From: Robertkochia solimangrovi
GTDB taxonomy: Bacteria; Bacteroidota; Bacteroidia; Flavobacteriales; Flavobacteriaceae
DNA length: 64,000 nucleotides
Assembly: GCF_007279655.1 (NCBI RefSeq)
Contig: NZ_QKWN01000013.1
Coordinates: 1-64,000, forward strand
Reading direction: 5' to 3'
Below the pieces are notes generated by a model, which was given only the letters and a program-made list of their open reading frames with translations, ran no database searches and had not been told where the DNA came from. The translations under genes were made by a program, and so were the position numbers. Below, in pieces: positions 10,278-54,781 of this stretch; position 1 is the stretch's first letter, and each line of letters begins with the position of its first letter.

Positions 10278-10390
10278 AACTGCGAATGTAATTAAATAAG
10301 CAGAACAACCTAAAAATTATAACCCTTCGGTTGTTCACCTGTCATCAACAATATAACTGTTAATAACTTGATTTTGTTGTTAATAAAGGT

Positions 10391-10418
10391 AAAAAAAACC
10401 GAAGCGCGAACTTCGGTC
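10391..10418 (-). terminator. Intrinsic terminator downstream of accA
   Basis: On the minus strand ACCGAAG, a 6-base loop, CTTCGGT, then an unbroken T tract (the A run at 10391-10398 on the plus strand). It lies about 30 bases after the accA stop and separates accA from dnaB. Confidence 0.85.
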
Positions 10419-10446
10419 TTAACAATAAGGTAACAAATACAAGGTC

Positions 10447-11400
10447 TTAGCCGTTGAAGACACCCATATTTGAATATTTATCCATTCTTTGCTTTACAAG
10501 ATCCTCTGGGGATAACTTTTTCAAGGCATTATATGCTTTGGTAATTTCCTTTTCCACAGTCTTAAAAGTGGTTTCTCTGTCAGAATGTGCTCCTCCAAGA
10601 GGCTCCTTGATGATATCATCAACAAGGTGTAGTTTTTTCATATCCTTAGCGGTAAGCTTTAAGGCTTCTGCCGCTTGTTCTTTATATTCCCAACTTCTCC
10701 AGAGAATAGAAGAACATGATTCTGGTGAGATCACCGAATACCAGGTATTTTCCAGCATCATTACTCTATCGCCCACTCCTATTCCAAGCGCACCTCCAGA
10801 AGCTCCTTCACCAATGATAATCACGATGATCGGTACCTTAAGCCTGGTCATTTCCAGGATATTTCTTGCGATCGCTTCTCCTTGTCCGCGTTCTTCAGCT
10901 TCGATACCCGGATAGGCTCCCGGAGTATCGATCAGGGAAACAACGGGTAACCCGAACTTCTCGGCCATTTTCATAAGACGAAGTGCCTTACGGTATCCTT
11001 CAGGATTAGCCATACCGAAGTTGCGATACTGCCTGGTCTTGGTATTATAACCTTTTTGTTGTCCGATGAACATAAAAGACTGATTTCCGACTTTCCCAAG
11101 TCCGCCGATCATGGCTTTATCATCTTTGACGTTACGGTCTCCGTGGAGCTCGAGAAAAGTATCTCCGCAAATCGCTTTTATATAATCGAGAGTATATGGT
11201 CTTGAAGGATGTCTTGACAACTGAACGCGTTGCCAGTCGGTAAGATTCTTGTAAATCTCCTTTTTAGTCTTCTCAAGTTTCTGCTCGATCTGTGTACAAG
11301 TATCGGTAACATCAACGTCACTTTCCTTTCCAAGTACTTTACACTTACCTAATTGCTCTTCCAGCTCTTTAATCGGTAACTCAAAATCTAAATACTCCAT
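10447..11400 (-). CDS. accA: Acetyl-CoA carboxylase carboxyltransferase subunit alpha
   Basis: Alpha subunit of the carboxyltransferase that makes malonyl-CoA for fatty acid synthesis; the partner AccD is not in this window. The 317 residues match the family length. Key segments are [12 protein letters not shown] near residue 61, [53 protein letters not shown] and [15 protein letters not shown], which form the crotonase-like CoA-binding fold. It is a single-gene unit with its own -7 promoter element upstream and a terminator downstream. Confidence 0.97.
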
Positions 11401-38023: not shown

Positions 38024-41000
38024 ATGACCTACGGAAAATTAAAAGCCAACTTTCCCTCTTCAGTAGTGCTGTTAATTTTACTATTCATTATACAGCATAC
38101 TGCCTTTGCCCAAAATAAATCAGTTCTAAACTTTGATATATCAAAAGGCCTCGCTCATAATTCCGTACGCAGTATCATACAGGATCATGATGGTTTTATT
38201 TGGGTTGGGACCTATGACGGACTCAATAAATTTGATGGATATGAATTTAAGATATACCGAAATTCATTAACCGATTCAACCTCCATCCCCCATAATTATA
38301 TTTACAAAATTCTTGAAGATGTCCACCAAAACCTCTGGATAGGTACCGGGCAAGGAATCTGTAAACTGGATAAAAGTCGTGCTGTTTTTGAACCTGTCTA
38401 TTATTTCGATAAAAACGGAAACAAGCTAAAAATCGATGTCCCCATACTCAGTGTTGCCAGCGATAATAAGGGCAAATTATATATAGGCACCTCAGGAAAC
38501 GGATTTCTGATTCTCAATAGCGGAGATAGTATTGCGAAAAGACATAAGCTTCCCAATATACCTGATTCAGCAAATTTGAGTATCTCCTGTATCGCAAAAG
38601 ATCCATCAGATGGAAAAATTCTGTTAAGCGACGGTTATAATCTTTTTAAATATGATCCGATCACAGATAAAATAAAATTCGAGATCAAAGTTGACCATTA
38701 TATAGCTGCCATGGCTTTTAAAGATAATATACTATGGATAGGGACTTCCTATGGCCTGTATAAATATGACCTTTCTGATCATCAAATCCTGAAAAAAATC
38801 ACTACCGCTAACAGTAAGCTTTCTCAAAACGTGATCGAAACGCTCTTCCTCTCCAGAAATGAAGAATTATGGATCGGTACCCAGGGAAAAGGTTTTGATA
38901 TTTTGAATCTCCAGACTGAAGAGATCGATCCTGAAAATGAATATACTTCAGATTCTGGATTCAAAGATGATTTTGTTTACGCAATTATCGAAGATGACAA
39001 AGACCAAAAATGGATCGGCACAAAAGAAGAGGGCGTTAAACTCATCACCAATAGAAAACATAAATTTCAAACGGTTAGCCACATCCCTTATAAGGCTAAT
39101 AGTCTGACCAATGATTTTCCTATTACTTTCTATGAAGATGCACAAAGTAAATTATGGATCGGCACAGAAGGCGGGGGGTTTAGCATTTGGGATCGAAAAC
39201 GTAATAATTTCCAAAATTTTAAAGCCGATGATCCGAAAGGTGCAGGGTTGAGCTATCCTATCGTTAGTGGCATCAAAAAAGATCAATCGGGAAAAATATG
39301 GATCTCAACCTATGGAGGAGGTATCAACACTTTTGATGTAAAAAGTAATACTTTCACCAAATATGAATGCAGGAACCCACTTGAAGGAATCATCAATAAA
39401 AATGTAAACCAACTCTATATCGATCATAATGGAGATATTTGGGCTTCGACCTATGGTAATGGCCGCTTGTATCAATTCGATAAAAAAAAGGATGAATTTA
39501 AGGTTCTGGACCAACAGTTGACGGACCTCAACATTATTCAAGAAGATGAATCCGGTACTCTTTGGGCAGGAAATTCTCATCAATTGATCAGGATTGACAG
39601 AACGAATAACAATCATACTTTCTATGAAATAGGAAAACCGGTGAGAGCTGTTTACACCGATGTTGACGGGAAATTTTGGATTGGCTCAGAAGGTGGAGGA
39701 CTTTTATTATTCGACAGGAAATCCGGACAGATCAAAGCCCGATATTCTACTTCAGACGGTCTTTGCAATAATTCGGCACTCTGCATTCTTGAAGATAATT
39801 CAGGCTACCTTTGGTTAAGCACTTTCAATGGACTTTCCCGATTTAACAAAGCAGAAAAGACATTTGAAAACTTCTATCAGGAAAACGGGCTGCAAAGCAA
39901 TCAATTTCTTTATCGCTCAGCTCTTAAACTGAAGAGTGGTGAACTTGTTTTTGGAGGTGTCAAAGGTTTCAATATCTTTAATCCTGACAGTATTTGTGAA
40001 GCCAGCAGCTTTACCCCTCCCCTTTACATTACCGATATTACCATTGATTCTGAAAACATAAACAGTATCCATGATTATGTCATGGAAACATCGGATGAAG
40101 GTGCTGTAACAAAATTAAAAGTACCCTATAACAAGGCAAATCTATCCTTTAAATTTGCAGCACTGGAATTCTTCGATCCTTCTTCCATAAAATATGCGTA
40201 CTTTCTGGAAGGATGGGATCAAAAATGGCAGTACACCGATACCTATCGCTATGCAAACTACTCCAATTTACGAGAAGGTAATTACATTCTTCATATCAAA
40301 TCATCATTACCCGACGGATCCTGGGCACAGAATGAAGTAACTACAAAAATATCCATTCTCCCCCCATGGTATCGATCCTGGTGGGCTTATACCTTTTATC
40401 TTCTGATCCTATTAATTACCATCAAGTTATATAGCGAATACCATAGAAGACAAGACCGTTTGAAACACAGGCTTGAAATCACGGAAATGGAAATGGAAAA
40501 GGAAAAAGAACTCAATGAAAAAAAGCTTTCCTTTTTCACCAATATCTCCCATGAATTCCGAACGCCGTTGTCCCTGATCATTGCTCCGATGAAGGATTTC
40601 CTTAACAGTAAGGACAGTCATGTAGATATTAAGGAACTGATCATCATATACCGTAATGCCCGAAGATTATTAAGCCTCGTGGATCAATTATTGATTTTCA
40701 GAAATTCGGATGCTAATGACCTCAAACGCTCTCAATTTGATATTGTTTCCTTTAGTAAAGAAGTTTTTTCATGCTTCTTACAACAGGCACGTATCAAAAA
40801 GATAAAATTTGATTTTGTCACGAAAATTGAAGCACTCTCAGTTGAAGCGGATCGGGAAAAAATAGAAGTGTGTCTTTTTAATTTATTATCCAATGCTTTT
40901 AAATATACCGAAGATGAAGGCAAAATCGAACTGCATCTAAAGATCAAGCCTGAAACAGATTTATTAATCGTAGAAGTAAAAGATACCGGCAAAGGTATTG

Positions 41001-42139
41001 ATCCATCGGAAGGTGAAAAGATCTTTGAAAATTTCTATCAGGTCAAAGACACAAATAGTAAACCAAAAGGATTTGGAATCGGACTCCATCTTATCAAAAA
41101 GATTGCTGAACAACACAAAGGATCTATTACCTATAAAAGTATTCCTGAAGAAGGAACCACATTCATTCTGGAACTACCGATCATTAAAGATTCATCCGAT
41201 GTTACCATAGATCAGAAAAATACCGCAATATCATCCGATTTCATAGAAAAGATCGTCAGTACCACCCAAGCAGAGACCATATCAGTTCATAGTGCCGGCG
41301 TGAAATCCAAAAGTGAAATGATTACAGACAGACAAACTATAATGATCGTCGATGATAATGTAGAACTTCGTAGTTATATAAAGAGTGTATTTTATGAAAA
41401 CTATCTGGTGAAGGAGGCTTCAGGTACAGAAGAAGCATCCCAACTCATCAATGAAGAGCTACCCGATATCATTATCACTGACATTGTTATGAGGGATTCC
41501 GACAGCGGACTTGTGTTATGTGAAAGGATCAAAAAGGATCCCGACCTTGCTCATATACCAGTAATTTTACTGACTTCTAGTACTTCAGCTGAAGTGAAAT
41601 TGAAAGGCATTGAAGGCGGGGCAGATGACTTTATCACAAAACCATTTGATAAGGAAATACTTAAAGCCAGAGTAAGCAATCTGCTTAAAAGCAGGAATCA
41701 TATGCATCGTCATTTTTACAATCAGATCACACTCAAGATCGATGATTATAAGATTTCTGATGATCTTAAGGAATTTCTGGATTCCTGTATTCGTATTACA
41801 GAACAGCATATAAAAGATCCGGATTTTAACGTAAAAACCCTGGCGGAGGAACTCGACATGAGTCATTCTGCGCTCTATAGAAAGGTAAAACTGGTTTCTG
41901 GAAAATCGGTGAACGAATTTATCAGATTTATCAAATTGCGTAAAGCTGCTCAGTTATTGATCGACACCGAATGTAATATCAGTGAAAGTGCATATATGGC
42001 TGGATTCAATGATATAGGTTATTTCAGACAGCAATTTAAAAAGGTATTCGGAATGAACCCTTCCAAGTATGCCCGACAATTCAGAAACGCTGCCCAAAAA
42101 TCCTATAAGATCAATCAAAATGGAATCTTTATGAATTGA
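38024..42139 (+). CDS. Hybrid two-component system regulator (HTCS)
   Basis: 1371-residue one-protein sensor and regulator of the adjacent PUL. After a signal (PSSVVLLILLFIIQHTAFAQ) there are about fourteen reg_prop propeller repeats in two blades (GFIWVGTYDGLNKFDG, NLWIGTGQGICK, KLWIGTEGGGFSIWD, KFWIGSEGGGLLLFD), a Y_Y_Y domain (about 700-780), a membrane helix near 786-806, a histidine kinase with His843 in NISHEFRTP, N box NLLSNAFKYT and G boxes, a receiver with phospho-acceptor Asp1153 (IIITDIVM), and a C-terminal AraC HTH (KTLAEELDMSHSALYRKV). The periplasmic part should bind an oligosaccharide. It converges with the last gene of the PUL operon. Confidence 0.96.
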   Translation: MTYGKLKANFPSSVVLLILLFIIQHTAFAQNKSVLNFDISKGLAHNSVRSIIQDHDGFIWVGTYDGLNKFDGYEFKIYRNSLTDSTSIPHNYIYKILEDVHQNLWIGTGQGICKLDKSRAVFEPVYYFDKNGNKLKIDVPILSVASDNKGKLYIGTSGNGFLILNSGDSIAKRHKLPNIPDSANLSISCIAKDPSDGKILLSDGYNLFKYDPITDKIKFEIKVDHYIAAMAFKDNILWIGTSYGLYKYDLSDHQILKKITTANSKLSQNVIETLFLSRNEELWIGTQGKGFDILNLQTEEIDPENEYTSDSGFKDDFVYAIIEDDKDQKWIGTKEEGVKLITNRKHKFQTVSHIPYKANSLTNDFPITFYEDAQSKLWIGTEGGGFSIWDRKRNNFQNFKADDPKGAGLSYPIVSGIKKDQSGKIWISTYGGGINTFDVKSNTFTKYECRNPLEGIINKNVNQLYIDHNGDIWASTYGNGRLYQFDKKKDEFKVLDQQLTDLNIIQEDESGTLWAGNSHQLIRIDRTNNNHTFYEIGKPVRAVYTDVDGKFWIGSEGGGLLLFDRKSGQIKARYSTSDGLCNNSALCILEDNSGYLWLSTFNGLSRFNKAEKTFENFYQENGLQSNQFLYRSALKLKSGELVFGGVKGFNIFNPDSICEASSFTPPLYITDITIDSENINSIHDYVMETSDEGAVTKLKVPYNKANLSFKFAALEFFDPSSIKYAYFLEGWDQKWQYTDTYRYANYSNLREGNYILHIKSSLPDGSWAQNEVTTKISILPPWYRSWWAYTFYLLILLITIKLYSEYHRRQDRLKHRLEITEMEMEKEKELNEKKLSFFTNISHEFRTPLSLIIAPMKDFLNSKDSHVDIKELIIIYRNARRLLSLVDQLLIFRNSDANDLKRSQFDIVSFSKEVFSCFLQQARIKKIKFDFVTKIEALSVEADREKIEVCLFNLLSNAFKYTEDEGKIELHLKIKPETDLLIVEVKDTGKGIDPSEGEKIFENFYQVKDTNSKPKGFGIGLHLIKKIAEQHKGSITYKSIPEEGTTFILELPIIKDSSDVTIDQKNTAISSDFIEKIVSTTQAETISVHSAGVKSKSEMITDRQTIMIVDDNVELRSYIKSVFYENYLVKEASGTEEASQLINEELPDIIITDIVMRDSDSGLVLCERIKKDPDLAHIPVILLTSSTSAEVKLKGIEGGADDFITKPFDKEILKARVSNLLKSRNHMHRHFYNQITLKIDDYKISDDLKEFLDSCIRITEQHIKDPDFNVKTLAEELDMSHSALYRKVKLVSGKSVNEFIRFIKLRKAAQLLIDTECNISESAYMAGFNDIGYFRQQFKKVFGMNPSKYARQFRNAAQKSYKINQNGIFMN

Positions 42140-42196: not shown

Positions 42197-44047
42197 TTAA
42201 TTGTTTTCCTTTTCCATCATCTCTTTGTAGTAATCCTGTAAGATGTAAAAAGCAAGTTTCTTATTTCCCTTATCATCGATAAGTCCTTTGCGGTTCCAGC
42301 CTTCCTGATATTCAGGATTATTTCTTCTCGGCGAACGGAAGTCTGCAAGTATCCATGGGGAAAGTCCGCTGAAATTAGCTGGAAATCGTGTTTTAAACAT
42401 ATTCACCTGTTCCTTATAATACCATTCCTGGAATTCTTCACTGAAACGCATTTCCTTAACATCATGGAAGCCGCCTTTAGCTCCGGCACCGGTTTCACTG
42501 ATAAAAAAAGGCTTTTTGTATTTAGTTTCCCATTTAGCGGTTTGACAGGCATCTGGTAATGCTCCGTACCAGCCCAGATACTCATTCAGGGAAACGATGT
42601 CGGTATATGCTCCCAAGGGGTCATCTACATAATTTACTCCGGCATTATAGCTAACTTCCAGAGCAGCTGAAATCAATCGTGTAGCATCCATACTTCTGGC
42701 CTTTTTCACCAGAGTACTCATAAAATTGGTTCTCGTTTCACTAACAGGAGTTTCATTTCCTACGGACCAGATGATCACGGAAGCTCGATTACGGTCGCGG
42801 GAGATCATTTCCTCCAGTTGTTTCTCTGCCTTCTTCAATACTTCCTTATTTCCAAAATCAATGGTCCAGTATACCGGGATCTCTGTCCATACGAGAATCC
42901 CCAGAGAATCTGCAAGGCGTGGCATATATTCATTATGTGGATAATGTGCCAAACGAACCATATTCGCATTCAATTCCTTCACCCATCCGAATAATTGAGT
43001 AGCATCTGCCGCACTGTTAGCACGGCGCACTTCCTGAGGAATTTCCTCATGGATACTGATCCCTCTTAGGAATAGCTGCTTCCCGTTCAACAGGATCTTC
43101 TCTCCTTCCACAGCGATCTTACGGAATCCTATCTTATCCTTGATGGTATGATCATTAAAGGTTAGATTTACCTCATAAAGTTTAGGACTCGATGTTGACC
43201 AAAGCTTCATTTTTCGGGCTTCAAAAGCCAGAGAAACCGAATCTCCGGTAACCCTCACCTCTTCCTTCAATTTCAATTCCGGTATTTCCAGCGTCACAAT
43301 ACCCTCCGATACCGGGTTATTCAATTTGATCCACCCTTTTATCTGAAATCTTTTTTTACTGGATGCTTTTACGACATCCTGCTCCGGATCCAGTTGTACA
43401 TGGTATTGACGTATAAAGGTTTCTGGTACAACAACCAGCTTTACATCACGAGTGATTCCTCCAAAATTCCACCAGTCGGTATTTACCGTTGGGATCTCCT
43501 CCGGATGCCTTTTGTTATCGACCTTTACCACAAGATAATTTCCTTCTTCCATCAAAACCTCTTTAGGAATCTTAAAATTGAAAGGCGTAAATCCACCTTT
43601 ATGCATTCCCAGTTTCTTTCCGTTCAGGTAAACATGTGCCTCATAGTTGACCGCTCCGAAATATAAATAGACCGATTCATCGTCTTTTAAAGCAGGAGCA
43701 TCGAATTCTCGCTGATACCAAACGGTTCCCTCATAATATTCGAAAATACGATCCTGGGAATTCCAGTCTCCCGGTACTTGTATCGTATACGGATCCTTAT
43801 ACCCATGTTCTGTCCAGTCGGTTTTCTTTGTCAATACGGGCCGGTTCCAGTAAGCGCCACCGTCACCCTCGTTTCTTTCTTTAAATCGATAATCATAAAA
43901 CCCGGTCTCATACGGATCGATAATATAATGCCAGGTTCCGTTCAGGGAGATAGAATTCCTGCCCTGTGTGTTGATAATAATATCTTCCTGGGCATAAAGA
44001 CATACGCCAGTGATCAGGTAAGTCAGCGCCAGTAATAACTTATTCAT
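42197..44047 (-). CDS. GH2 family beta-glucuronidase
   Basis: 616-residue exported glycosidase (signal MNKLLLALTYLITGVCLYAQ). It has the GH2 sugar-binding domain (about 30-200), immunoglobulin-like domain (200-300) and TIM barrel. The acid/base is Glu432 in WSVGNE and the nucleophile Glu518 in FISETGAGA. The NxK motif that binds the uronate carboxylate in E. coli GusA and relatives is present as Asn585-Arg586-Lys587 (WNRKGLI). This makes beta-glucuronidase the best call; galactosidases lack it. It is the last gene of the leftward PUL operon, 28 bases after the GH88 gene, and should remove terminal GlcA from products of the other enzymes. Confidence 0.9.
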   Translation of the reverse strand: MNKLLLALTYLITGVCLYAQEDIIINTQGRNSISLNGTWHYIIDPYETGFYDYRFKERNEGDGGAYWNRPVLTKKTDWTEHGYKDPYTIQVPGDWNSQDRIFEYYEGTVWYQREFDAPALKDDESVYLYFGAVNYEAHVYLNGKKLGMHKGGFTPFNFKIPKEVLMEEGNYLVVKVDNKRHPEEIPTVNTDWWNFGGITRDVKLVVVPETFIRQYHVQLDPEQDVVKASSKKRFQIKGWIKLNNPVSEGIVTLEIPELKLKEEVRVTGDSVSLAFEARKMKLWSTSSPKLYEVNLTFNDHTIKDKIGFRKIAVEGEKILLNGKQLFLRGISIHEEIPQEVRRANSAADATQLFGWVKELNANMVRLAHYPHNEYMPRLADSLGILVWTEIPVYWTIDFGNKEVLKKAEKQLEEMISRDRNRASVIIWSVGNETPVSETRTNFMSTLVKKARSMDATRLISAALEVSYNAGVNYVDDPLGAYTDIVSLNEYLGWYGALPDACQTAKWETKYKKPFFISETGAGAKGGFHDVKEMRFSEEFQEWYYKEQVNMFKTRFPANFSGLSPWILADFRSPRRNNPEYQEGWNRKGLIDDKGNKKLAFYILQDYYKEMMEKENN

Positions 44048-44075: not shown

Positions 44076-45290
44076 CTATTTTAAGTTTTTATATCGAAGC
44101 ATGGCTTCCACGAGATAATAATCTCCATAAGATAAGGGAGTATCGACCTCGGTATTATTCGGCATATTCCCTACTCCGTGCTTTAACAGGAAGCCACCAT
44201 TCTCCCCTACCTCAGCCAGATATTCCGGTTTCAACAGATTTTTCAGCATGGTTTCAGCAGCCTGTATATATCGTTGGGAATTTTCTCCATCGGTATATGT
44301 GGATAATTCCAATAAAGCGGATGCGATGATCGCTGCCGCAGAAGAATCTCTCAAAGCATCCGGAATTCCCGGTGCATTAAAGTCCCAGTAAGGGATCATA
44401 TCCTCCGGCAGGTTTGGATGTGACAGCAAATAATCGGCGATATGTTTTGCTTGCTCGAGGTATTTGGAATCTCCGGTCGCTCTGTACATTACCGTATACC
44501 CATATAATCCCCACGATTGTCCTCTCGCCCATGAGGAAGAATCAGCAGCTCCCTGATTGGTAATATGCATTTTGGCCTCACCTGTTTTTTCATCATAGAT
44601 CACCTCATGAAAGGAACTATAATCAGGTCTGAAATGATTGTCTATGGTAGTATTCGCATGATTCACCGCAATGTTATAATACGTGCTGTCTTGACTATGT
44701 TCAGTGGCCCAGAAAAGCAATTCGAGATTCATCATATTATCGATGATAACCACAAGATCACCATCACCTCCTTTATTCCAGGATGCATTGTCCCAGGAAC
44801 GAATCGCTTTAACAGTATCATTGTATCGGGTGGAAAGCGATTTGGCACTATTCATCAAAATCGATTCGTATTCGGGATTCGGTTGCAATCTTTCCGCATT
44901 TCCAAAACTACAGAACATCATAAATCCGAGATCGTGGGTGGTCGTATTAAACTGTTCTTTGGCCAGGTCTTTTAAAAATGCATCCGTTTCTTCCTTTAAA
45001 ACTGAAGATGAATTGTTCTCGTTCAGATATAACATCGTTCCCGGATAGAATCCGCTACACCACCATCCGGAATTACTCGTTTCCAGTTTATCTCCCTCTT
45101 TGTGATAGGTCTTTGGATACTGACCGGGTTCAACCTTTTCACTGAGATATTCATATTGACGGGTAGCCTGTATCAATACCGAATCAATAGTAGTTTCAAG
45201 CGTGTCCTCTGTAACTACTTCCTCTTTCTTTTGCTCTTTGCAGGCAAAAAGAGATAACAGAGATACCGCTACAATCATCTTTACTTTCAT
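44076..45290 (-). CDS. GH88 unsaturated glucuronyl hydrolase lipoprotein
   Basis: 404-residue lipoprotein (signal MKVKMIVAVSLLSLFAC, Cys17) with an (alpha/alpha)6 barrel. The family hydrates the enol of 4,5-unsaturated uronates left by polysaccharide lyases. Candidate catalytic Asp residues are Asp120 in THDLGFMMF and Asp174 in IIDNMMNLELLFWA; SWARGQSWGLYGY and TPLSYGDYYLVEA are also typical. Its presence implies a lyase in the pathway. It sits between the BNR_4 and GH2 genes, 7 and 28 bases away, all in one operon. Confidence 0.94.
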   Translation of the reverse strand: MKVKMIVAVSLLSLFACKEQKKEEVVTEDTLETTIDSVLIQATRQYEYLSEKVEPGQYPKTYHKEGDKLETSNSGWWCSGFYPGTMLYLNENNSSSVLKEETDAFLKDLAKEQFNTTTHDLGFMMFCSFGNAERLQPNPEYESILMNSAKSLSTRYNDTVKAIRSWDNASWNKGGDGDLVVIIDNMMNLELLFWATEHSQDSTYYNIAVNHANTTIDNHFRPDYSSFHEVIYDEKTGEAKMHITNQGAADSSSWARGQSWGLYGYTVMYRATGDSKYLEQAKHIADYLLSHPNLPEDMIPYWDFNAPGIPDALRDSSAAAIIASALLELSTYTDGENSQRYIQAAETMLKNLLKPEYLAEVGENGGFLLKHGVGNMPNNTEVDTPLSYGDYYLVEAMLRYKNLK

Positions 45291-45297
45291 ATTTAGT

Positions 45298-46614
45298 CTA
45301 TTTTAAGGGAATATTTTTTACTTCTATGATCTTAACCGGTTGTGGAGGAATGTCGGTTAAACCCTCCCCATCAACCTGAATAACCTGCTGTGAAAATACG
45401 TGTAATTTCCTGTTCTTTTTCCATAATTCCACATCGATGTTGGGTTCCCACTGACCAAGATTCTCTTCTGAAAGATCGATCCTGCTCCATGAATTTCCAT
45501 TCACCGTCCTTTTAGCGAGTGTTATACGATTATCGTTCTCCTCATCCCGAAACAACAAGCAGATCATGTTTCCCTTAAGAAAGATGACCGGTCTCGAGAT
45601 AGGGATACGCTTTGTTCCTCCACCTCCAAGATGGAATGGCTCCTTATGAAAATTTGTATCGATCATCTCCCATTGTCCATTCATCCGGAAGATCACCTTG
45701 TATTGAGGTATGCCATCGGTTTCCCAATAGGTTGTGATAAAAGGTTCGCTATTCTCTGAAACCGTCATGGAGGTCTGGTTGATCAGGCTTGAATTCTGAT
45801 TGATCTTCCAGGCAATCTCTGCGGTTTCTGCCTTGATCGGCAACTCATATTTTTCACCATTGGAACGTTCCCATGATTTTCCCCCATCATGAGAAACTGC
45901 GAAACACATATCATGATTTGTAGATACATCCCAGGTTTCTCTCCACACCCATGACAGATATAGAGAACCTTCGGGACCTACAGCGGTTTGCCAGTAAGCG
46001 CTTCTTTGCTCTTCTCCATCGATGAGATTATCCTGTATTTGCTTCCATTTACCGGTCACCGGATCATAAGAATTAATCACCAGATTACCCCTTCCAGACT
46101 CACCGGAACGATACAGAAACAATAACTTCCCGTCAGGAAGGTTCTGGAATTCCGGGTAGGTTACCCTTTCCTCCTGCAAACCTGTCATAGGGAGTTCTTC
46201 GGTAAGTTCCAACCCAAAAGGTGCTGTACTTTTTACATAGCGCAAGGGTTCATTATGCTGATCCCAGCTTATATGCAAGTAACCATCCGAATCGACCGCT
46301 AAACTAATACTGTTGTGTGCATCTTTCACATTTCCGGAATAAGGAGTCTCCTTTATTTCCCAGTTTTCTGTACCAACTTTTCTTTTTGCCAGCACCATTT
46401 TCCCCTTCTCATTATAGTAAGCCGTAAATTGTATATTTTCAAAAGTGGTTACTGCCTTACCTCTGAAAATTACTGTATTCACAGAATTATTGCTCCAACC
46501 ATTACCCAGTGCAATGTTCGAAATCTTCAACCCTGCACAGGAGGAAAACAGTAAAAAGAAAGTGAAAACTAATGAAAGTGTTCTTGAGTAAAGATTCTTA
46601 GTAAACAAACTCAT
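45298..46614 (-). CDS. BNR_4 propeller protein, possible polysaccharide lyase
   Basis: 438-residue lipoprotein (signal LVFTFFLLFSSC, Cys26) with a seven-bladed BNR/sialidase-like propeller. Segments AHNSISLAVDSDGYLHISWD, TYPEFQNLPDGKLLFLYRSG and STNHDMCFAVSHDGGKSWER match BNR_4 proteins, a group that includes the ulvan lyases PL24 and PL25. Two His, His100 and His120, sit 20 apart in the first segment, as I recall for the catalytic His pair of PL25; the Tyr/Arg pair may be Tyr168/Arg169. The candidate Tyr of a later motif appears as Phe218, so activity is uncertain. Start overlaps the preceding stop as ATGA. In this operon it is the best candidate for the lyase that feeds GH88. Confidence 0.72.
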   Translation of the reverse strand: MSLFTKNLYSRTLSLVFTFFLLFSSCAGLKISNIALGNGWSNNSVNTVIFRGKAVTTFENIQFTAYYNEKGKMVLAKRKVGTENWEIKETPYSGNVKDAHNSISLAVDSDGYLHISWDQHNEPLRYVKSTAPFGLELTEELPMTGLQEERVTYPEFQNLPDGKLLFLYRSGESGRGNLVINSYDPVTGKWKQIQDNLIDGEEQRSAYWQTAVGPEGSLYLSWVWRETWDVSTNHDMCFAVSHDGGKSWERSNGEKYELPIKAETAEIAWKINQNSSLINQTSMTVSENSEPFITTYWETDGIPQYKVIFRMNGQWEMIDTNFHKEPFHLGGGGTKRIPISRPVIFLKGNMICLLFRDEENDNRITLAKRTVNGNSWSRIDLSEENLGQWEPNIDVELWKKNRKLHVFSQQVIQVDGEGLTDIPPQPVKIIEVKNIPLK

Positions 46615-48584
46615 TCTGCATTTAATCGTTTAACAATTACATTTTTTGCCGATAAAGAAGCATGTTCCAGATCCCCGGCCTTACCGGAAGATCCTTCCAT
46701 CTGCAAGTTAATGATCAGCCAAAAAGCTTTATTTGAAAAATCTGTGTAATGAATTCCGGTTTGCTCGTCATCTATAAAATAAGATATCGTTGTATGTTTT
46801 TCATCCTGATATTCCATTCTGATCTTATAGGTGTGCCAGTTATCGGAACCACCGGATACTTCTTTTTGAATGGTCGTTACCTCAGACGGTGTCATAAAAG
46901 TATTCTGCCAGTTAATAGTATTGCCTTTGAATTCCATAATATCCGTTTCCGGTGGCCATCCATCAACCGCTGTCATCCAGAAAGCAGGCCAGGTCCCGGA
47001 AAGATACGGCACTTTAAATTCTCCTGAGATCTCATATACCGGATTTTGTGCGGATACCGTGATCGTTTGTTGGGCATGGATCGCTCCTGATCGGTAACGA
47101 ATAGGTAAATAAGGTGAAGATTTACTTTTCCCTTCCGATTTATCCAGTAATTCCGCATGAAGTTCCACTACTCCTTTCTCTAAAATAACATTTGATTTAT
47201 CCATGCGAGCAGTACCATTATGATCACTTCCCCAAGGGTATAGAGTATTCCAGTAATTTCTGAAAATCCCTTTTTTATCAAAGGAAGTCACCGGAATCAG
47301 GGTATCCCATTTCATTTTTTTATTGCTGTAATCTCCAGGATAAAACGCATGATCTGCCTTTGCCATACCCCCGCTCCAAATTTGTTTTTGGGTCCAGGGT
47401 CTGCCGGGAGCCGACCAGTATGGAGTTTGTTGTGGTAGTCCGAGTACCAGAAAAGCGGTAGAACAGAGGTACAGACTCCCTGTTGAGATATAGGGTTCTG
47501 CAATCTCGCGCTGATGACCATAGAAACCGATAGTCAACCAGCCATTTTCATCAAAAGTTCCAGGCACACTCATCTGGTTTTTAATAACTGCAAAAAGTCC
47601 TTCTCTAACCTGGGCGGGTGCGATCTGATGGGGAAGTTTTTGAAAAAAGGCTATCTGTGAAAGCATCTGGAATGCCCCGCATCTGTAGGCAAGTGATCTT
47701 CCAATCGGAGGAAATGTACCTTCCGGAGAAATGAGCCGTTCCTGTATGGCTGCATAGCGTTGAGCCCTTTCCAGAAAGACACCGGCATCATCGATAAATT
47801 TATTCCGGTATCGGTAATTCGATAAAGATTCTTTTTTATCTCCAAGAACATTGACAATATCCAGGATCATCGGTTGAATAACATAGCTGTTATAATAATC
47901 CCAATGGAAATCAGGACCATCTCCATATATACCATCGCCGAGGTACCACTCATCATGTTTCAGAAGTGCATATTCGATACGCATCATATCCGCATCTCCT
48001 GTAAATTTCAGCAGTGCGGCCTCTACCATTCCGCTAAATAGCAACCAGTTCATATAAGGAGGGGATATACTTCTTGTACTTTTAAGCTCGCGTATTACAT
48101 TCTCTCTGGTAGTTTCATCAAGATTACCCCATAATTGCTCAGGAGCTCTGATCAGTGCCTCCGCCAGAAATGCTGCATCCACCAAGGGTTGCCCTCCCTC
48201 TGTGAAATTCATGTAATCTGCTGCATTAGGGTCTGTTGCATTTTCAATACCCTTCACTGCAAGTGTAATGTATCTTTCGCGAAGCTTCCCTTCTTCGGTA
48301 TCATCTGGACCAAGTTCCAGCCAGGGTGCCATCCCTGCAAGTAATCTGCCAAAAGCTTCGAGATAGGTTACCTGCTCCCTCCCTCCATAAGGATCGATCG
48401 CCTTTTCCACCGGCATTTTATATTTAAGCGAATCATTTGCCAGATTACTCAGTACCGGATCAGCGATCTTTGAGAGCATTTTTACCATCTCCCGGCGTTG
48501 TTCCAGCCCATTTTTATCATTTTGAGATCGAGAATAAAAGAAATTTAGTGATAACAGAAGAATAAGTAATATTCGAAAATTCAT
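46611..48584 (-). CDS. DUF2264 (GH154-like) plus GH16-like fusion enzyme
   Basis: 657-residue exported protein. The start at 48584 gives MNFRILLILLLSLNFFYS, a signal; the longer frame to 48680 is unlikely. Residues from about 30 to 390 are DUF2264 (YLEAFGRLLAGMAPWLELG, FTEGGQPLVDAAFLAEAL, YLGDGIYGDGPDFHWDYYNS), the domain I associate with family GH154 beta-glucuronidases. About 390-480 is a beta-rich linker. The C-terminal 170 residues look like GH16: GTWPAFWMTAVDGWPPETD and the catalytic ExDxxE pattern as Glu546-Thr-Asp548-Ile-Met-Glu551. I cannot tell whether the GH16 part is active or only a binding module. It follows SusD and overlaps BNR_4. Confidence 0.75.
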   Translation of the reverse strand: MNFRILLILLLSLNFFYSRSQNDKNGLEQRREMVKMLSKIADPVLSNLANDSLKYKMPVEKAIDPYGGREQVTYLEAFGRLLAGMAPWLELGPDDTEEGKLRERYITLAVKGIENATDPNAADYMNFTEGGQPLVDAAFLAEALIRAPEQLWGNLDETTRENVIRELKSTRSISPPYMNWLLFSGMVEAALLKFTGDADMMRIEYALLKHDEWYLGDGIYGDGPDFHWDYYNSYVIQPMILDIVNVLGDKKESLSNYRYRNKFIDDAGVFLERAQRYAAIQERLISPEGTFPPIGRSLAYRCGAFQMLSQIAFFQKLPHQIAPAQVREGLFAVIKNQMSVPGTFDENGWLTIGFYGHQREIAEPYISTGSLYLCSTAFLVLGLPQQTPYWSAPGRPWTQKQIWSGGMAKADHAFYPGDYSNKKMKWDTLIPVTSFDKKGIFRNYWNTLYPWGSDHNGTARMDKSNVILEKGVVELHAELLDKSEGKSKSSPYLPIRYRSGAIHAQQTITVSAQNPVYEISGEFKVPYLSGTWPAFWMTAVDGWPPETDIMEFKGNTINWQNTFMTPSEVTTIQKEVSGGSDNWHTYKIRMEYQDEKHTTISYFIDDEQTGIHYTDFSNKAFWLIINLQMEGSSGKAGDLEHASLSAKNVIVKRLNAE

Positions 48585-48712: not shown

Positions 48713-50314
48713 TTAATATCCGGGATTCTGTTCCAGTTCTGCATCCTTATTTAATTGGATTTCGGTTATTGGAATGGGGAATAAAAGGTTCTTTTCAGAA
48801 ATACCTTCTATTTTCATATTTTCGGGTGCGTCATCATTTAAATATACCCGATCCAATAAGGTTCCGGTTCGCATCAATTCCAAACGTCTGTTTTCCTCGC
48901 CGAGTAGTTCTCGTACCCTTTCATCAAGAATAAAATCCATATCGATATCGGAAGCATCCACCAGCGGTGCATTTGCTCTTGTTCTCAAGGCATTGATCGA
49001 TGCTGCAGCACCCTCAAGATCTCCCTGCATAAACTGGGCTTCAGCTTTTAACAGGTAAGTTTCTCCTAATCGCATCAGGATAAAATCCTTCCACATCCCA
49101 TATCCAAAAACATCTCTGGGATCAAACTGCCCCCATTTTAAGGTATACGGATTAATAATGAAAAGTGTATCCGGGCCTTCGTAAGGAACATCCTGGCCAT
49201 AAAGATCCGGTGTATTCGGGTTGTTATATTTGAATCTTCTATGGATGCTATACTTGGAATTTCTCATATCAGAATTATCATAAAGATCATAGAGAACCCA
49301 ATTATTCAGGCGCATTCTGGATAACCCTCTTCCTCCCAAAGAATCTGCGGGTATCATACCATTTCTGTTGTGGTAGGCACCCCCCCAAACCCTTCTTTGC
49401 TGGGGACTTCCACTACTTCCGCCTCTTACGTCACTCGGATTCTCATTTTCAAGAACCCAGATCGCCTCAGAATTTCCCTGAGATCTTCTTTGGTTACCCA
49501 CCAAAAACATATCTGAAAAAGCATCACCCTCTTCACCTGCCTTAACTCCGTAACGGTTAGATACCAGAGCGATCGAAGGATTATCGATCAGGATATCACA
49601 TTGCGCTTCCGCCTGTGCATAATCTCCCATTCTTAGATAAACTTTTGCTAACAACTGACTCGCTGCAGCACTACTCACTCTTTGTTCCTCAACGGTTTGT
49701 CCGATCGCAGGTAAATTGGAAATCGCAAATAGAAGGTCAGATTCTATCAGCGCATTGATCTCCTGTAGACTTGCTCTCACGAAATCAGTTCTCGGTTCTT
49801 TAATAGGTTCGGTAACCAACGGTACTCCACCAAATAAGGTTGCCATTTCATTATAAGCCCGGGCTCTGAAGAATTTTGCTTCAGCACTGAACTGTAATTT
49901 CTCTGCTTCGGTCATATCGGATATTTGATCACCGTTTACATCGATGGCATAGATCACATTGTTCGAATTTTCGATGATATTATAATCCAGCGACCAGATC
50001 CTGAGTGCTACTCCGTTATCTGAGGTCAATGTATTATAGCGATAAAAAGGTATTTCAGCTCCCTGGGGTTGTGTCGGCCAGGTGATATCTGTACCAACCT
50101 GCCAAACACAAAGCCATCCTTGCTCTCCTGAATAGGTATAATAGTTACTGATCTGTTGATACAAACCGATCAAAGCGGCATTCAAACTTAGTTTGTCAGT
50201 CACATTACTTGCCGAATATGCGTCCTGTACTTCCTCATCCAAAAAGGAATCACTACACGAAGTGACAAGGCTCAGCGACCATAAAATTGCTATGAATGTT
50301 ATATATTTTCTCAT
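48713..50314 (-). CDS. SusD/RagB family lipoprotein (PUL)
   Basis: 533-residue surface glycan-binding lipoprotein (signal MRKYITFIAILWSLSLVTSC, Cys20). It shows the SusD helical core (FRARAYNEMATLFGGVPLVTEP, SSAAASQLLAKVYLRMGDYAQAEA, GETYLLKAEAQFMQGDLEGAAASINALR) and the C-terminal ERVRELLGEENRRLELMRTG and LLFPIPITEIQLN, which are standard. It starts 19 bases after susC and completes the outer-membrane import pair of the PUL. The next gene begins 128 bases downstream. Confidence 0.96.
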   Translation of the reverse strand: MRKYITFIAILWSLSLVTSCSDSFLDEEVQDAYSASNVTDKLSLNAALIGLYQQISNYYTYSGEQGWLCVWQVGTDITWPTQPQGAEIPFYRYNTLTSDNGVALRIWSLDYNIIENSNNVIYAIDVNGDQISDMTEAEKLQFSAEAKFFRARAYNEMATLFGGVPLVTEPIKEPRTDFVRASLQEINALIESDLLFAISNLPAIGQTVEEQRVSSAAASQLLAKVYLRMGDYAQAEAQCDILIDNPSIALVSNRYGVKAGEEGDAFSDMFLVGNQRRSQGNSEAIWVLENENPSDVRGGSSGSPQQRRVWGGAYHNRNGMIPADSLGGRGLSRMRLNNWVLYDLYDNSDMRNSKYSIHRRFKYNNPNTPDLYGQDVPYEGPDTLFIINPYTLKWGQFDPRDVFGYGMWKDFILMRLGETYLLKAEAQFMQGDLEGAAASINALRTRANAPLVDASDIDMDFILDERVRELLGEENRRLELMRTGTLLDRVYLNDDAPENMKIEGISEKNLLFPIPITEIQLNKDAELEQNPGY

Positions 50315-50332: not shown

Positions 50333-53300
50333 TTATAGTGATACATTCAATCCCAGTGATATTGTTCGTACCAAAGGATAGTTATTTGTCCAGTCACCGG
50401 ATCCTCTGTAGGATTGAGAACTTTCCGGGTCCCATCCGATCCAGTCGGTGAAAGTATACAGGTTTCTTCCCGCTACATATAACATCAGACTCTGAATATT
50501 ATATTTCTCTAAAACGGCAGCGGGAACATTATAACTCAATCGGATATCTTTAATTCGGGTATAACTTGCATCCTTAGGAAACCAATACCCTTTATTATTC
50601 TGATATGCCACGAGTGAAGGCCATTCATTGCTCGCATTTTCAGGAGTCCAGTACTGGAAATCTGCGGGAACATTTCTTCTTCCTACCTCATCTCCGTAGT
50701 TGATATCCGGATTTCCTTTAACGATGCCTTGCGCAGTTTGAATAAAAAAGCTGAAGGTAAAGTTCTTATAGCTAAAGGTATTGGTGATACCACCGGTCCA
50801 GTCAGGTAATGAATTTCCCTGGATCACCCGGTCATTCTCAGAATCGATCTGACCATCACCATTGATATCTGCAAATTTGATATCTCCCGGACGTGCTGTA
50901 GGATCCCAATTGGAAGGATCTTCACCCTCCTGCCAGACCCCTACTTTTTTATAGGTGTACACTGAGTTCAATGACTCTCCAAGAAACCATCCATTGGCTA
51001 TATCATCTTCTCCATCGCCATAGATCTCTACGAGCTCGTTCTTATAGGTGGAGAAATTGATACCTGTTTCCCATTTGAAATCATTAGCGTTAACATTTAC
51101 GGTGTTCAGGGTGATTTCCAGACCCTGGTTTTCCATCTTACCGATATTGTCCCAAATTGAAGTGAAACCTGTAATATTTGGAATATTTCTTCTTAGGAGA
51201 ATATCCTTGGTTTTGCTTTTATATACCTCAACAGTACCAGAAATGCGGTTATCAAAGAATCCGAAATCCACCCCAAGGTTAGCCGATGTGGTTGTTTCCC
51301 ATTGCAGGTTCGCATTCCCCATCCCATTGATATACGTTCCTACCAGCGCTGAGCCACCGAACGGATATAATACGGTACCTGCAGTACTCTGTGTTTGATT
51401 TGGATCGATCGCCTGGTTACCTGTTTCTCCATAGGAAAAACGGAGTTTCAATTGGTTGATTTTTGATGCATTTTCCATAAAACTTTCATTGGCGATATTC
51501 CAACCTAAAGCTACAGAAGGGAACAACCCGTATTTATCTGTATTCGCACCAAATGCTGAGTATCCATCCCTACGTGCCGTTAACGTTAACAGGTATCTGC
51601 TGTCATAGGAATAATTCAATCTCGCCATTTGTGACAATAAAGTGGTTTTATTACTCGCAGATGCACCACTGATGTTACTTGCTGATTCTATTCCATGGTA
51701 GGAAAGCGCATCACTCAAGAAACCAACTCCTGTAATTGATGAATTTTGATAATTCGTCTCTTGTGCACTGTAGAGTAACGTCACATCAAAATGATGCTTT
51801 TCAATATCCTTTGTATACGTCAACAGGTTTTCTATGATCCAGTTCTTGGTTTCTGCATTATAGATATAAGCCGTACCATTATTATCGTTTGCCGCACGTC
51901 CTTCATAGGTCGCATTAAATCTGGGATTGATATAATAAGAGGCATTGATCCTGTATTGTAGCCCATCGATCCAGGGTTTAACAATTGCATAGGCAGTACC
52001 TGAAAAATTACGAATATGGTCAACCCGATCTGTGGTTAGTCCTAACAACGGATTTTCATAAAGCTGTTCGGGTGACATCGGATAAATATCGTATTCTCCA
52101 TTTTCATCATAAGGTACAGAATAGGGGCTCATCGCTGTTGCATTTAAGAGGTTAGCTCTTCCCCCGTCATAATTATTGTTTGCAAAAAACACAGTTACCC
52201 CGGTTGTTAACCAATCTGTAATGTCCAGATCTAGATTTGACCGAAAATTAAAGCGATTGTACTGATACCCTTTTACAACACCTTTTTCATCGAGATAGCT
52301 TCCTGAAAGAAAATATTTAGCATTTTCAGTACCTCCTGAAAAACTTATGTTGTGTTCCTGTATCACACCTGTCTGTGTCACCTCATCCAGCCAATTTGCC
52401 ATTCTGCCTGCGTTATAATTATCTATCTCAGCGGTATTGGGTAAAACGTCGGTTTGTTCCAGTCCTCTTTGTTCCATATAATCTTCATATTTCTGAATAT
52501 AGGCTTCAGGACCCATCGGTTTCAATTTATGAGGTATGTCTTCAACGCCCGCATACGTACTATAATTGATCGTTGGCTTACCGGTTTTTCCTCGTTTCGT
52601 TGTGATCAGAATAACCCCGTTGGAACCTCTTGTACCATAGATCGCAACTGCTGAAGCATCTTTTAAAACCTCTATGGATTTAACATCCCGAGTGTTGATA
52701 TCATTCAGGGTTCCGTAAAAAGGAGTACCATCAACCACGATAAACGGACTTGTGTTCGCATTGATAGAATTGATTCCACGGATCTGAATACCTCCCTGAC
52801 TACCGGGTACCGAAGATCCTGTACTAATATTCAATCCGGCCGTAGTACCCTGAATTGCCTGAGTCAGGTTTGTCACCGGCAGGTTTTCCAATCGTTCGGA
52901 TGGAACTGATGTTACAGATCCCGTCACATCGGAACGCTTTTGAGTACCGTAACCAATCACAACTACCTCATCCAGTTGTGAGGTATCTTCGATCAATTGA
53001 ATACTGAATTGTGTCTTACCATTTAATGGAACCTCCTGTTGTGTAAAACCGATATAGGTAACGACGAGAACAGAATTAGGACCACTTACTTCCAAAGAAA
53101 AATTACCGTCGAAATCGGTAACTGTACCATTATCAGTTCCCTTTTCGATGACGGTTGCACCGTAAAGTGGAACTCCGTCTGACTGCGACGTAACTGTACC
53201 TGTAACCCGAAGGTTTTGAACCCAGGGAGATGACTCGGCATAACCGACCGAGACGCAGAAAAAGATAATAAACACGGATACTATTGCTTTAAACTTGTAC

Positions 53301-53335
53301 CGTGTCAGTAACTCATAGTTGATTAAGAAATCCAT
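50333..53335 (-). CDS. SusC/RagA TonB-linked outer-membrane protein (PUL)
   Basis: 1000-residue importer with signal FKAIVSVFIIFFCVSVGYA, a carboxypeptidase-D-like domain (VTGTVTSQSDGVPLYGATVI), TonB box region (TSQLDEVVVIGYGTQ), plug (NISTGSSVPGSQGGIQIRGI, PFIVVDGTPFYGTL, VKSIEVLKDASAVAIYGTRG) and a barrel ending TISLGLNVSL. Unlike the SusC at 26153 it has no STN domain, in line with control by the HTCS instead of an ECF sigma. It heads the leftward operon. Confidence 0.96.
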   Translation of the reverse strand: MDFLINYELLTRYKFKAIVSVFIIFFCVSVGYAESSPWVQNLRVTGTVTSQSDGVPLYGATVIEKGTDNGTVTDFDGNFSLEVSGPNSVLVVTYIGFTQQEVPLNGKTQFSIQLIEDTSQLDEVVVIGYGTQKRSDVTGSVTSVPSERLENLPVTNLTQAIQGTTAGLNISTGSSVPGSQGGIQIRGINSINANTSPFIVVDGTPFYGTLNDINTRDVKSIEVLKDASAVAIYGTRGSNGVILITTKRGKTGKPTINYSTYAGVEDIPHKLKPMGPEAYIQKYEDYMEQRGLEQTDVLPNTAEIDNYNAGRMANWLDEVTQTGVIQEHNISFSGGTENAKYFLSGSYLDEKGVVKGYQYNRFNFRSNLDLDITDWLTTGVTVFFANNNYDGGRANLLNATAMSPYSVPYDENGEYDIYPMSPEQLYENPLLGLTTDRVDHIRNFSGTAYAIVKPWIDGLQYRINASYYINPRFNATYEGRAANDNNGTAYIYNAETKNWIIENLLTYTKDIEKHHFDVTLLYSAQETNYQNSSITGVGFLSDALSYHGIESASNISGASASNKTTLLSQMARLNYSYDSRYLLTLTARRDGYSAFGANTDKYGLFPSVALGWNIANESFMENASKINQLKLRFSYGETGNQAIDPNQTQSTAGTVLYPFGGSALVGTYINGMGNANLQWETTTSANLGVDFGFFDNRISGTVEVYKSKTKDILLRRNIPNITGFTSIWDNIGKMENQGLEITLNTVNVNANDFKWETGINFSTYKNELVEIYGDGEDDIANGWFLGESLNSVYTYKKVGVWQEGEDPSNWDPTARPGDIKFADINGDGQIDSENDRVIQGNSLPDWTGGITNTFSYKNFTFSFFIQTAQGIVKGNPDINYGDEVGRRNVPADFQYWTPENASNEWPSLVAYQNNKGYWFPKDASYTRIKDIRLSYNVPAAVLEKYNIQSLMLYVAGRNLYTFTDWIGWDPESSQSYRGSGDWTNNYPLVRTISLGLNVSL

Positions 53336-53902: not shown

Positions 53903-54781
53903 ATGTTTGATTCCTATAAGCACTTTTTGGAAACGCCCGGATATCACAAGATCATCGGTGAGGATTACCTCATCGTTGAATTCAAATGCCCTATCAAGGA
54001 AGAACTTTTCAGTGCCTGGTCGGAATGCCATAGTATCGTTTATGTGCTGAACGGTCAGAAAAAATGGATCACTCCTTCCGGAGAATTTTTGGTTAAGGCC
54101 AATGAATCGATATTCGTCAGGAAAGGCGCCTTCAAAAATCAACAATATTTTGAAGAGAGTTTCTGTGTTCTGATGTTCTTTATGAAAGATGATTTCATCA
54201 GACGTTGTGTTGAGAATGACATCGAAAAGGAGATTCAAATCATGAAAAAGGTGGATCATCCCGAATTCATCTATCGTGTCAACGTTAGTGAAAGTCTTGA
54301 AATGCTTTATAATTCCTTTTTCTCCTATCTGAAACAAACGGTAAAGACACCTCAAAAGATCATCGAATTAAAATTCAGGGAGATGTTGATGAACATCTGC
54401 CTTGAATCTGAAAATTCAGAAATCAGGGATGTATTGTATACCCTTTCCAAAAATTCAGGAGGTTCGATAGAGCAGGTTATGGAAGAACAATACTTTTACA
54501 ATCTCAAAGTTGAAGAATATGCACGATTATGCGGTAAAAGCCTGTCATCCTTTAAAAGGGAATTTAAGCATCTCTATGAAACCACCCCGGGAAAATGGCT
54601 GCTGAAGAAACGGCTAAACCTCGCACGAGATCTTATGCATACCACCGATTTTACCATTCAGCAGATCTGCTATGATTGCGGCTTTGAAAGCGATTCCCAT
54701 TTTATACGTAGTTTCCGTTCGGAATTCGGTACTACCCCGAATAAATGGAGGAACCTTGATAGAAGTATGGTATCCCGTTAG
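53903..54781 (+). CDS. AraC family transcriptional regulator
   Basis: 292-residue regulator with an N-terminal cupin-like region (YVLNGQKKWITPSGEFLVKANESIFVRKGAF) and a C-terminal double HTH (VEEYARLCGKSLSSFKREFKH, FTIQQICYDCGFESDSHFIRSFRSEFGTTPNKW). It diverges from the PUL susC across 567 bases and may be a second regulator of that operon, although its location next to the rhodanese/DsrE pair also allows an unrelated role. It is followed by a terminator shared with the rhodanese gene. Confidence 0.9.
   Translation: MFDSYKHFLETPGYHKIIGEDYLIVEFKCPIKEELFSAWSECHSIVYVLNGQKKWITPSGEFLVKANESIFVRKGAFKNQQYFEESFCVLMFFMKDDFIRRCVENDIEKEIQIMKKVDHPEFIYRVNVSESLEMLYNSFFSYLKQTVKTPQKIIELKFREMLMNICLESENSEIRDVLYTLSKNSGGSIEQVMEEQYFYNLKVEEYARLCGKSLSSFKREFKHLYETTPGKWLLKKRLNLARDLMHTTDFTIQQICYDCGFESDSHFIRSFRSEFGTTPNKWRNLDRSMVSR

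Follow-up and report, generated by a model that had tools for sequence, protein, structure and literature searches.

Proteins with a DUF2264 domain, which correspond to CAZy family GH154 by the titles of their structure matches, were the subject of a 2025 proposal to reclassify the entire family from hydrolases to dehydratases (PMC12269599). BcGDH of Bacteroides caccae (9o4u) turns terminal beta-linked glucuronic acid (GlcA) into 4,5-unsaturated GlcA; no reliable hydrolase activity was detected for it, and none of the structures compared has an active site built like that of a typical glycoside hydrolase (PMC12269599). BT3677 (BT_3677) of B. thetaiotaomicron, the founding GH154 member, is 22% identical to BcGDH, was reported as an exo-beta-glucuronidase and also dehydrates, and such dehydratases co-localise with GH88 and GH105 (PMC12269599). 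Here we describe a gene, P0001, from a 64,000-nucleotide stretch of Robertkochia solimangrovi (contig NZ_QKWN01000013.1, positions 1 to 64,000; hereafter the window), in which a DUF2264 domain is joined to a GH16-type domain. Both families are known; their combination is new and conserved across seven species, and the GH16 half belongs to a distinctive clade marked by Gln628 and Glu630. A DUF2264-GH16 fusion was not found named in the titles or abstract openings of the open-licence literature searched. On balance, P0001 appears to be a secreted two-headed dehydratase/GH16 enzyme of a polysaccharide utilisation locus (PUL) for an arabinogalactan-like polymer.

P0001 resembles BcGDH (9o4u, 9nwf; PMC12269599) in fold, in the Tyr/Arg/Tyr set, in six further active-site residues and in a co-localised GH88 gene. 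However, BcGDH stops after the dehydratase domain (its chains have 400-405 amino acids (aa)), whereas P0001 continues into the GH16 domain, and the locus of BcGDH serves chondroitin. The open reading frame (ORF) of P0001 lies on the minus strand at 46611-48584, with an ATG at 48584, a stop codon at 46611-46613 and 657 codons for amino acids; it contains no internal stop codons and is thus intact. Comparison of the fusion N-termini by eye indicated a signal sequence without a lipobox Cys (approximately residues 1-21; 48522-48584, minus), which is followed by the DUF2264/GH154-type putative beta-D-glucuronate dehydratase domain (residues 30-397; 47394-48497, minus) and the GH16-fold domain (residues 421-657; 46614-47324, minus). 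PF10022 (DUF2264) matches residues 30-397 with an E-value of 2.3e-120 and 402 bits against a cut-off of 25, spanning positions 2-353 of the 353 in the profile, and PF00722 (GH16) matches residues 522-608 with an E-value of 1.1e-4 and 22.2 bits. The ORF, Pfam and fold evidence therefore bears out the DUF2264 and GH16-like fusion proposed for these positions in the first-pass annotation, the strand being minus, and Glu546, Asp548 and Glu551 occur in GH16 spacing with Thr at 547, exactly as it had claimed, within the segment GWPPETDIMEFKG. No lipobox Cys was seen by eye in any of the seven fusions, while 12 of the 16 standalone members of the GH16 clade have a Cys at a plausible lipobox (five by pattern and seven more by eye). 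Because it lacks this Cys, unlike most standalone clade members, P0001 is probably soluble and periplasmic and would act on imported oligosaccharides.

Like P0001, BT3677 combines the dehydratase family with a second domain (PMC12269599). PF20938 (DUF2264_C) was found in two of four long DUF2264 proteins from relatives' loci (L071 and L031; a GH88 fusion was left out), and we infer that it is also the second domain of BT3677, a protein that presumably belongs to an arabinogalactan protein (AGP) setting. The Pfam search gave no PF20938 match in P0001 at E-values up to 1, which rules out DUF2264_C as its C-terminus.

The genome scan covered 84,980 species genomes, in which at least 346 stretches encode a relative; the best 80 loci of these were analysed. 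The complete fusion is present in five of the 80: Galbibacter marinus (L003), Gracilimonas mengyeensis (L004), Sinomicrobium pectinilyticum (L005), Sinomicrobium sp. N-1-3-6 (L006) and Galbibacter orientalis (L007), all 57-71% identical to P0001 in the best segment. Together with genome G297 (L120) and the R. solimangrovi window this makes seven species, a count of fusions between DUF2264 and this particular GH16 clade. The first-pass annotation had suggested looking for C-terminal GH16 domains on DUF2264 proteins, and the search recovered the same two-domain ORF in seven species. They span two NCBI phyla, Gracilimonas being labelled Balneolota. An assembly or frameshift artefact is ruled out by the ORF architecture common to all seven, and an oddity of Flavobacteriaceae alone by the presence of the fusion in Gracilimonas. 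When the GH16 half was used as the query, 129 of 299 genomes of the family matched at an E-value of 0.001, nearly all of them weakly (E >1e-9, ordinary GH16s). Strong matches (E <1e-57) were confined to seven of the 299, four with long, fused frames of 658-711 aa (R. solimangrovi itself, G030, G297 and G094) and three with standalone copies. At an E-value of 1e-20, in family, phylum and class sets that overlap, matches were found in three of 395 phylum genomes (R. solimangrovi, one fused and one standalone), in four of 395 class genomes counting R. solimangrovi (the other three standalone), in one of 92 genomes of the family of G569, a Gracilimonas-type genome, and in 12 of 195 genomes of the family of G540, where all frames measure 274-471 aa and are therefore too short to include DUF2264 as well. 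R. solimangrovi also encodes a standalone paralogue of the GH16 clade, 46% identical to the fused half. This paralogue (L119:9614-10471, minus strand, contig C16) is lipoprotein-like and adjoins SusCD genes, a LacZ-like GH2 gene and a two-component regulator.

Residue conservation and fold make it very probable that the N-terminal half is a beta-D-glucuronate dehydratase. Its nearest solved relatives are 8oi4, 9o4u and 9nwf (E-values of 9.4e-103 and 6.7e-102 for the latter two), and the full-length model of P0001, with a predicted local distance difference test (pLDDT) score of 93.2, gives Foldseek target template modelling scores of 0.94-0.96 to all three. The proposed catalytic residues of BcGDH, Y229, R285 and Y289, correspond to Y231, R296 and Y300 of P0001 and are kept in all seven fusions, and six of the seven other BcGDH residues (E74, R78, N176, N177, W178, F181 and Y354) are identical. 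Ten active-site alanine mutants of BcGDH were inactive, although, as the authors warn, the chondrosine used is a poor substrate (PMC12269599). Nine of the ten mutated residues are identical in P0001 (E76, R80, N179, W180, F183, Y231, R296, Y300 and Y365) and invariant both in the seven fusions and in 48 of 48 unfused DUF2264 homologues aligned. What counts against the assignment is that BcGDH Asn176, whose Ala mutant was inactive, is Met178 in P0001, a position that varies in the fusions (four Met, three Ser) and in the 48 unfused proteins (24 Asn, 21 Ser and one each of Met, Cys and Thr); that 8oi4 was published as a beta-galactosidase; and that early BcGDH preparations had an inconsistent aryl-glycosidase activity, which the authors did not ascribe to BcGDH (PMC12269599). 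An exo-beta-glucuronidase coupled to a GH16 endo-glycanase would agree with the founding of GH154 on the reported exo-beta-glucuronidase BT3677 and with the label of 8oi4. Nevertheless, we consider such a hydrolase improbable, given the dehydratase activity of BcGDH and BT3677, the lack of a reliable BcGDH hydrolase activity and of a hydrolase-type active site in the structures compared (PMC12269599), a separate GH2 beta-glucuronidase-like gene already in the locus, and a neighbouring GH88 that suits an unsaturated product. The two-headed exo-uronidase and endo-glycanase suggested in the first-pass annotation accordingly stands as a two-domain protein with a GH16-type C-terminus, but exo-uronidase is probably the wrong chemistry and should read uronate dehydratase until shown otherwise, since the GH154 members BcGDH and BT_3677 dehydrate (PMC12269599) and the catalytic residues are kept.

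The C-terminal half is, with comparably high probability, a catalytically active GH16 domain. Its AlphaFold2 model, built from 41 aligned sequences, is a GH16 jelly roll (pLDDT 95.4; predicted template modelling score 0.92). Among the 50 Foldseek matches listed, 48 are titled GH16 or are known GH16 enzymes (laminarinases, lichenases, porphyranases, carrageenases, agarases and mucin O-glycanases) and the other two (8ep4 and 8ew1) name only Bacple_01703; the best is 3azx, with an E-value of 8.6e-16. The catalytic motif E546-T-D548-I-M-E551 (46932-46949, minus) falls on the E-I-D-x-x-E of solved GH16s in five sequence alignments, and E546, D548 and E551 all lie on one model strand, 132-138 of the domain. 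Profile and fold searches thus led to catalytic GH16s and not to a non-catalytic concanavalin-like or lectin family, and the triad aligns with the E-x-D-x-x-E strand of solved enzymes. The GH16 laminarinases of Thermotoga maritima (3azx) and Pyrococcus furiosus (2vy0) share the jelly-roll fold and the E-x-D-x-x-E with P0001, which is nevertheless only 18-20% identical to them, is two residues shorter ahead of the first Glu, continues with E-F-K-G behind it and has Q-x-E-G in place of A-x-G-G.

Alignments were made of 23 clade members (the seven fusions and 16 standalone proteins) and 18 other GH16s, both sets picked by similarity to the P0001 GH16 domain. The clade is well separated in the tree (100/100), with a stem of 2.21 changes per column. 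All 23 clade members and all 18 others retain E-x-D-x-x-E; this, the confident fold model and the occurrence in seven species imply that the triad in P0001 is not due to chance. The residue after the first Glu is Ser in 15, Thr in three, Ile in three, Val in one and Leu in one of the clade members, and Ile in 15 and Val, Met and Thr in one each of the others. Thr547 was considered as a sign of lost function and ruled out: Ser or Thr is normal in the clade (18 of 23), and Thr also occurs in the ordinary GH16 L112, which likewise reads ETDIME. W532, W536 and W543 are invariant in the clade. Q628 and E630, part of the clade-specific Q628-M-E630-G (46692-46703, minus), are present in 23 of 23 members, compared with Ala and Gly in 18 of 18 others, A-x-G-G being a feature of this comparison set and no formal criterion of the GH16 family. 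K553 is found in 23 of 23 members and two of 18 outsiders, and the W-P-P directly before Glu is not exclusive to the clade, since the Phycisphaerales protein L082, at least, has it too. Pfam and NCBIfam searches gave no family model that names the clade confidently.

Several of these features weigh against an active domain. The PF00722 score of P0001 stands barely above the gathering score of 22 and is marginal by Pfam alone; the paralogue in the same genome scores 21.2, under that cut-off, and the clade member L118:9303-10472 has no PF00722 match at 0.001. By comparison with the Bacillus lichenase, the residues on the strand of Q628 and E630 probably face the cleft, which may then be remodelled, since this pair takes the place of a motif that all the aligned ordinary GH16s share. 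Together with the long stem of the clade, the marginal score and this replacement would favour a GH16 half that is a non-catalytic carbohydrate-binding or scaffold module targeting the dehydratase. We give this explanation little credence: E546, D548, E551 and the three Trp are invariant in all 23 members, and drift would have eroded them; a non-catalytic role also fits poorly with the triad being retained in the 16 standalone proteins, and GH16 genes also adjoin two unfused dehydratases.

One of these is in Zunongwangia pacifica (L019), where a separate GH16 gene (9056-9904, plus) lies directly upstream of an unfused dehydratase gene (9908-11137), in a locus with a related SusC (68%, truncated where the stretch ends), SusD (59%), PL42 (50%) and GH88 (65%). 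In Leeuwenhoekiella polynyae (L015/L118) the dehydratase gene lies between a GH16 gene upstream (L015:9075-9980, plus), with which it overlaps, and GH88; the cluster also has a standalone GH16 of the fused-type clade, with PL42, LacZ-like GH2 and GH97. The GH16s adjoining these two unfused dehydratases have scores of 58.8 and 60.5 bits, far over the Pfam cut-off, and are of another type than the fused clade, so dehydratase and GH16 have been brought together in at least two ways. By sequence, the closest solved relative of the L019 GH16 is 6t2n, from a mucin O-glycanase study. Two homologous proteins that are 47% identical (L118:10488-11717 and L116:10049-11290, both plus) adjoin standalone GH16 genes of the clade and carry an HEMAHxxGxxxH stretch, possibly, we assume, a metalloprotease motif; Pfam gave no match for the former and weak fn3-type matches for the latter.

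P0001 is the third of six minus-strand genes, in the order SusC, SusD, fusion, BNR_4 protein, GH88 and GH2, which are flanked by plus-strand regulators. Pfam identified a SusC-like TonB-dependent transporter (50333-53335), a SusD-like glycan-binding lipoprotein (48713-50314) and, at one edge, an AraC-family regulator (53903-54781, plus); the hybrid two-component system regulator at the other edge (38024-42139, plus) was read from the sequence. The BNR_4 gene (45298-46614, minus), which shares 4 bases (46611-46614) with the fusion gene, is predicted to encode a PL42 (former GH145) L-rhamnose-alpha-1,4-D-glucuronate lyase-like protein, on the evidence of PF15892, of NF052497 (571 bits, under its cut-off of 700) and of its solved relatives 5mum, 5mvh, 4irt, 5muk and the L-rhamnose-alpha-1,4-D-glucuronate lyase 7esk. 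The anterior His/Tyr/Arg site of GH145, a family to become PL42, is that of a lyase, which frees rhamnose (Rha) and leaves an unsaturated GlcA that GH105 removes, and rhamnosidase activity in this family needs the posterior His48 (PMC8406133, PMC8377490). By eye, with residue numbers mapped by alignment and spacing, the anterior His, Tyr and Arg are kept in eight of eight aligned relatives, the window protein included. The posterior His48 position reads F, T, F, Y, H, Y, H and H in the eight, the window protein having Phe. The GH88 unsaturated uronyl hydrolase-like lipoprotein (44076-45290, minus) was identified by PF07470 and by 3wiw and 1vd5. The GH2 beta-glucuronidase-like protein (42197-44047, minus), assigned by families and solved relatives, is closest to 6d1n (beta-galactosidase/beta-glucuronidase), also matches 7vqm (a beta-galacturonate enzyme) and has N-R-K-G at residue 585, N-x-K being a uronidase signature. 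PUL5 of B. plebeius (GH145 BACPLE00338, GH105 BACPLE00337 and GH43_24; PMC8406133), which serves AGP side chains, likewise pairs a Rha-GlcA lyase with an unsaturated uronyl hydrolase; the window differs in having GH88 for GH105 and, in addition, the dehydratase-GH16 fusion.

The gene order fusion, PL42, GH88 is found in all seven fusion loci, the GH88 of Sinomicrobium sp. N-1-3-6 being found by profile only and not by blastp. GH88 ORFs are present in 36 of the 73 loci with a DUF2264 ORF, and in 26 of the 36 they are adjacent to it. On the other side, 37 of the 73 loci have neither GH16 nor GH88, some because the stretch is short, and a GH16 ORF is present in only 11 of the 73, five of them fusions; the association of dehydratase and GH16 is thus a feature of the fusion branch, not of the whole family. 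A Chitinophagaceae metagenome-assembled genome encodes a natural GH88-DUF2264 fusion (L075:8816-11140, plus), with hydrolase and dehydratase of one step in one chain. Like P0001, it joins a dehydratase to another glycan enzyme, but there the fused partner, GH88, is the enzyme that acts next in the uronate step and lies on the N-terminal side.

In the GH16 tree the halves from all seven fusions cluster together, with moderate support (83/80); in the DUF2264 tree those of the seven fusions cluster with a single unfused Muricauda protein (100/99). This protein (L008:9977-11251, plus) nests inside the fusion clade and has no GH16 domain. No relatives of SusC, PL42 or GH88 were found in the 21 kb of the Muricauda locus, and tblastn found no GH16 remnant in the stretch (best E-value 0.41). 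The Muricauda state is likely a secondary loss of GH16. One fusion and one later loss fit these sequences; there may also have been two fusions.

The target polymer is probably type II arabinogalactan, as suggested by PL42 in all seven loci and by arabinofuranosidase-, LacZ- and galactan-1,3-beta-galactosidase-like genes in relatives. The relatives' loci add genes for an alpha-L-arabinofuranosidase domain protein and for GH43, melibiase-like and LacZ-like GH2 proteins; of ten genes searched with NCBIfam at 1e-30, the LacZ-type GH2 and GH97 were matched and the other eight, including the GH43, arabinofuranosidase and melibiase-like ones, were not. For the final gene in the Gracilimonas stretch (L004:19728-21794) the best matches are 6eug and 6euf, followed by 3vsf and by 7bys and 5flw, whose labels are galactan 1,3-beta-galactosidase and exo-beta-1,3-galactanase respectively. 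Some observations speak against this substrate: 6eug and 6euf are labelled 'Beta-glucanase', although we take 6eug to be a structure from a 2018 AGP study, and 3qz4, the closest match of the L007 GH43 gene, carries the label xylanase, although it is presumably a protein of the B. thetaiotaomicron AGP locus. The inference is weaker for the Robertkochia strain, since its own locus has none of the GH43 and arabinofuranosidase genes that occur in some relatives. A beta-1,3(4)-glucanase or other non-galactan glycanase, in a locus directed at another acidic polymer such as a microbial or algal GlcA-containing glycan, seems less likely but would explain why the closest solved GH16s are mostly laminarinases, that is, beta-1,3-glucanases, why 6t2n is the best match of the GH16 adjoining the Zunongwangia dehydratase, and why the PL42-type neighbour has additional, weak matches to ulvan lyases. 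Against this, the relatives' arabinofuranosidase-, LacZ-like and galactan 1,3-beta-galactosidase-like genes together with PL42 are a set used on AGP, and GH2, GH27, GH43 and GH145 are named as families indicating AGP degradation (PMC8406133). Cleavage of a galactan linkage by the GH16 half is a tentative assignment, to which we give slightly less than even weight.

Elsewhere in the window, a gene at 7442-8749 (minus) encodes a 435-aa protein without a Pfam match at 0.001; it adjoins an ORF at 5651-7381 that, by reading only, resembles a GH20 beta-hexosaminidase.

Judged from sequences, architecture, residue conservation, fold models and gene neighbourhoods, the arabinogalactan reading would assign the following activities, order and location to the locus. 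The N-terminal head would use Tyr231 as base, Arg296, and Tyr300 as acid to strip water from a non-reducing-end GlcA, yielding 4,5-unsaturated GlcA, which the GH88 encoded two genes downstream would remove. The PL42 lyase encoded between them would produce that unsaturated end too, starting from Rha-alpha-1,4-GlcA caps; because lyase and dehydratase would give the same end group, a single GH88 step would serve capped and uncapped GlcA ends alike. As a retaining GH16 endo-glycanase (Glu546 nucleophile, Asp548, Glu551 acid/base), the C-terminal head would cleave the GlcA-bearing chain, most likely a galactan. P0001 may thus be a bifunctional uronate-dehydratase/endo-galactanase whose GH16 half founds an unnamed subfamily with the Q628/E630 pair in its cleft, a possibility that we advance with some reserve.

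The natural fusion ties one branch of GH154 to a GH16 partner, and its fixed neighbours, PL42 and GH88, suggest a pathway, open to testing, that would bring the Rha-capped and the uncapped GlcA ends of arabinogalactan together in one unsaturated intermediate. It also brings to light a coherent GH16 clade with standalone members that is worth testing for specificity.

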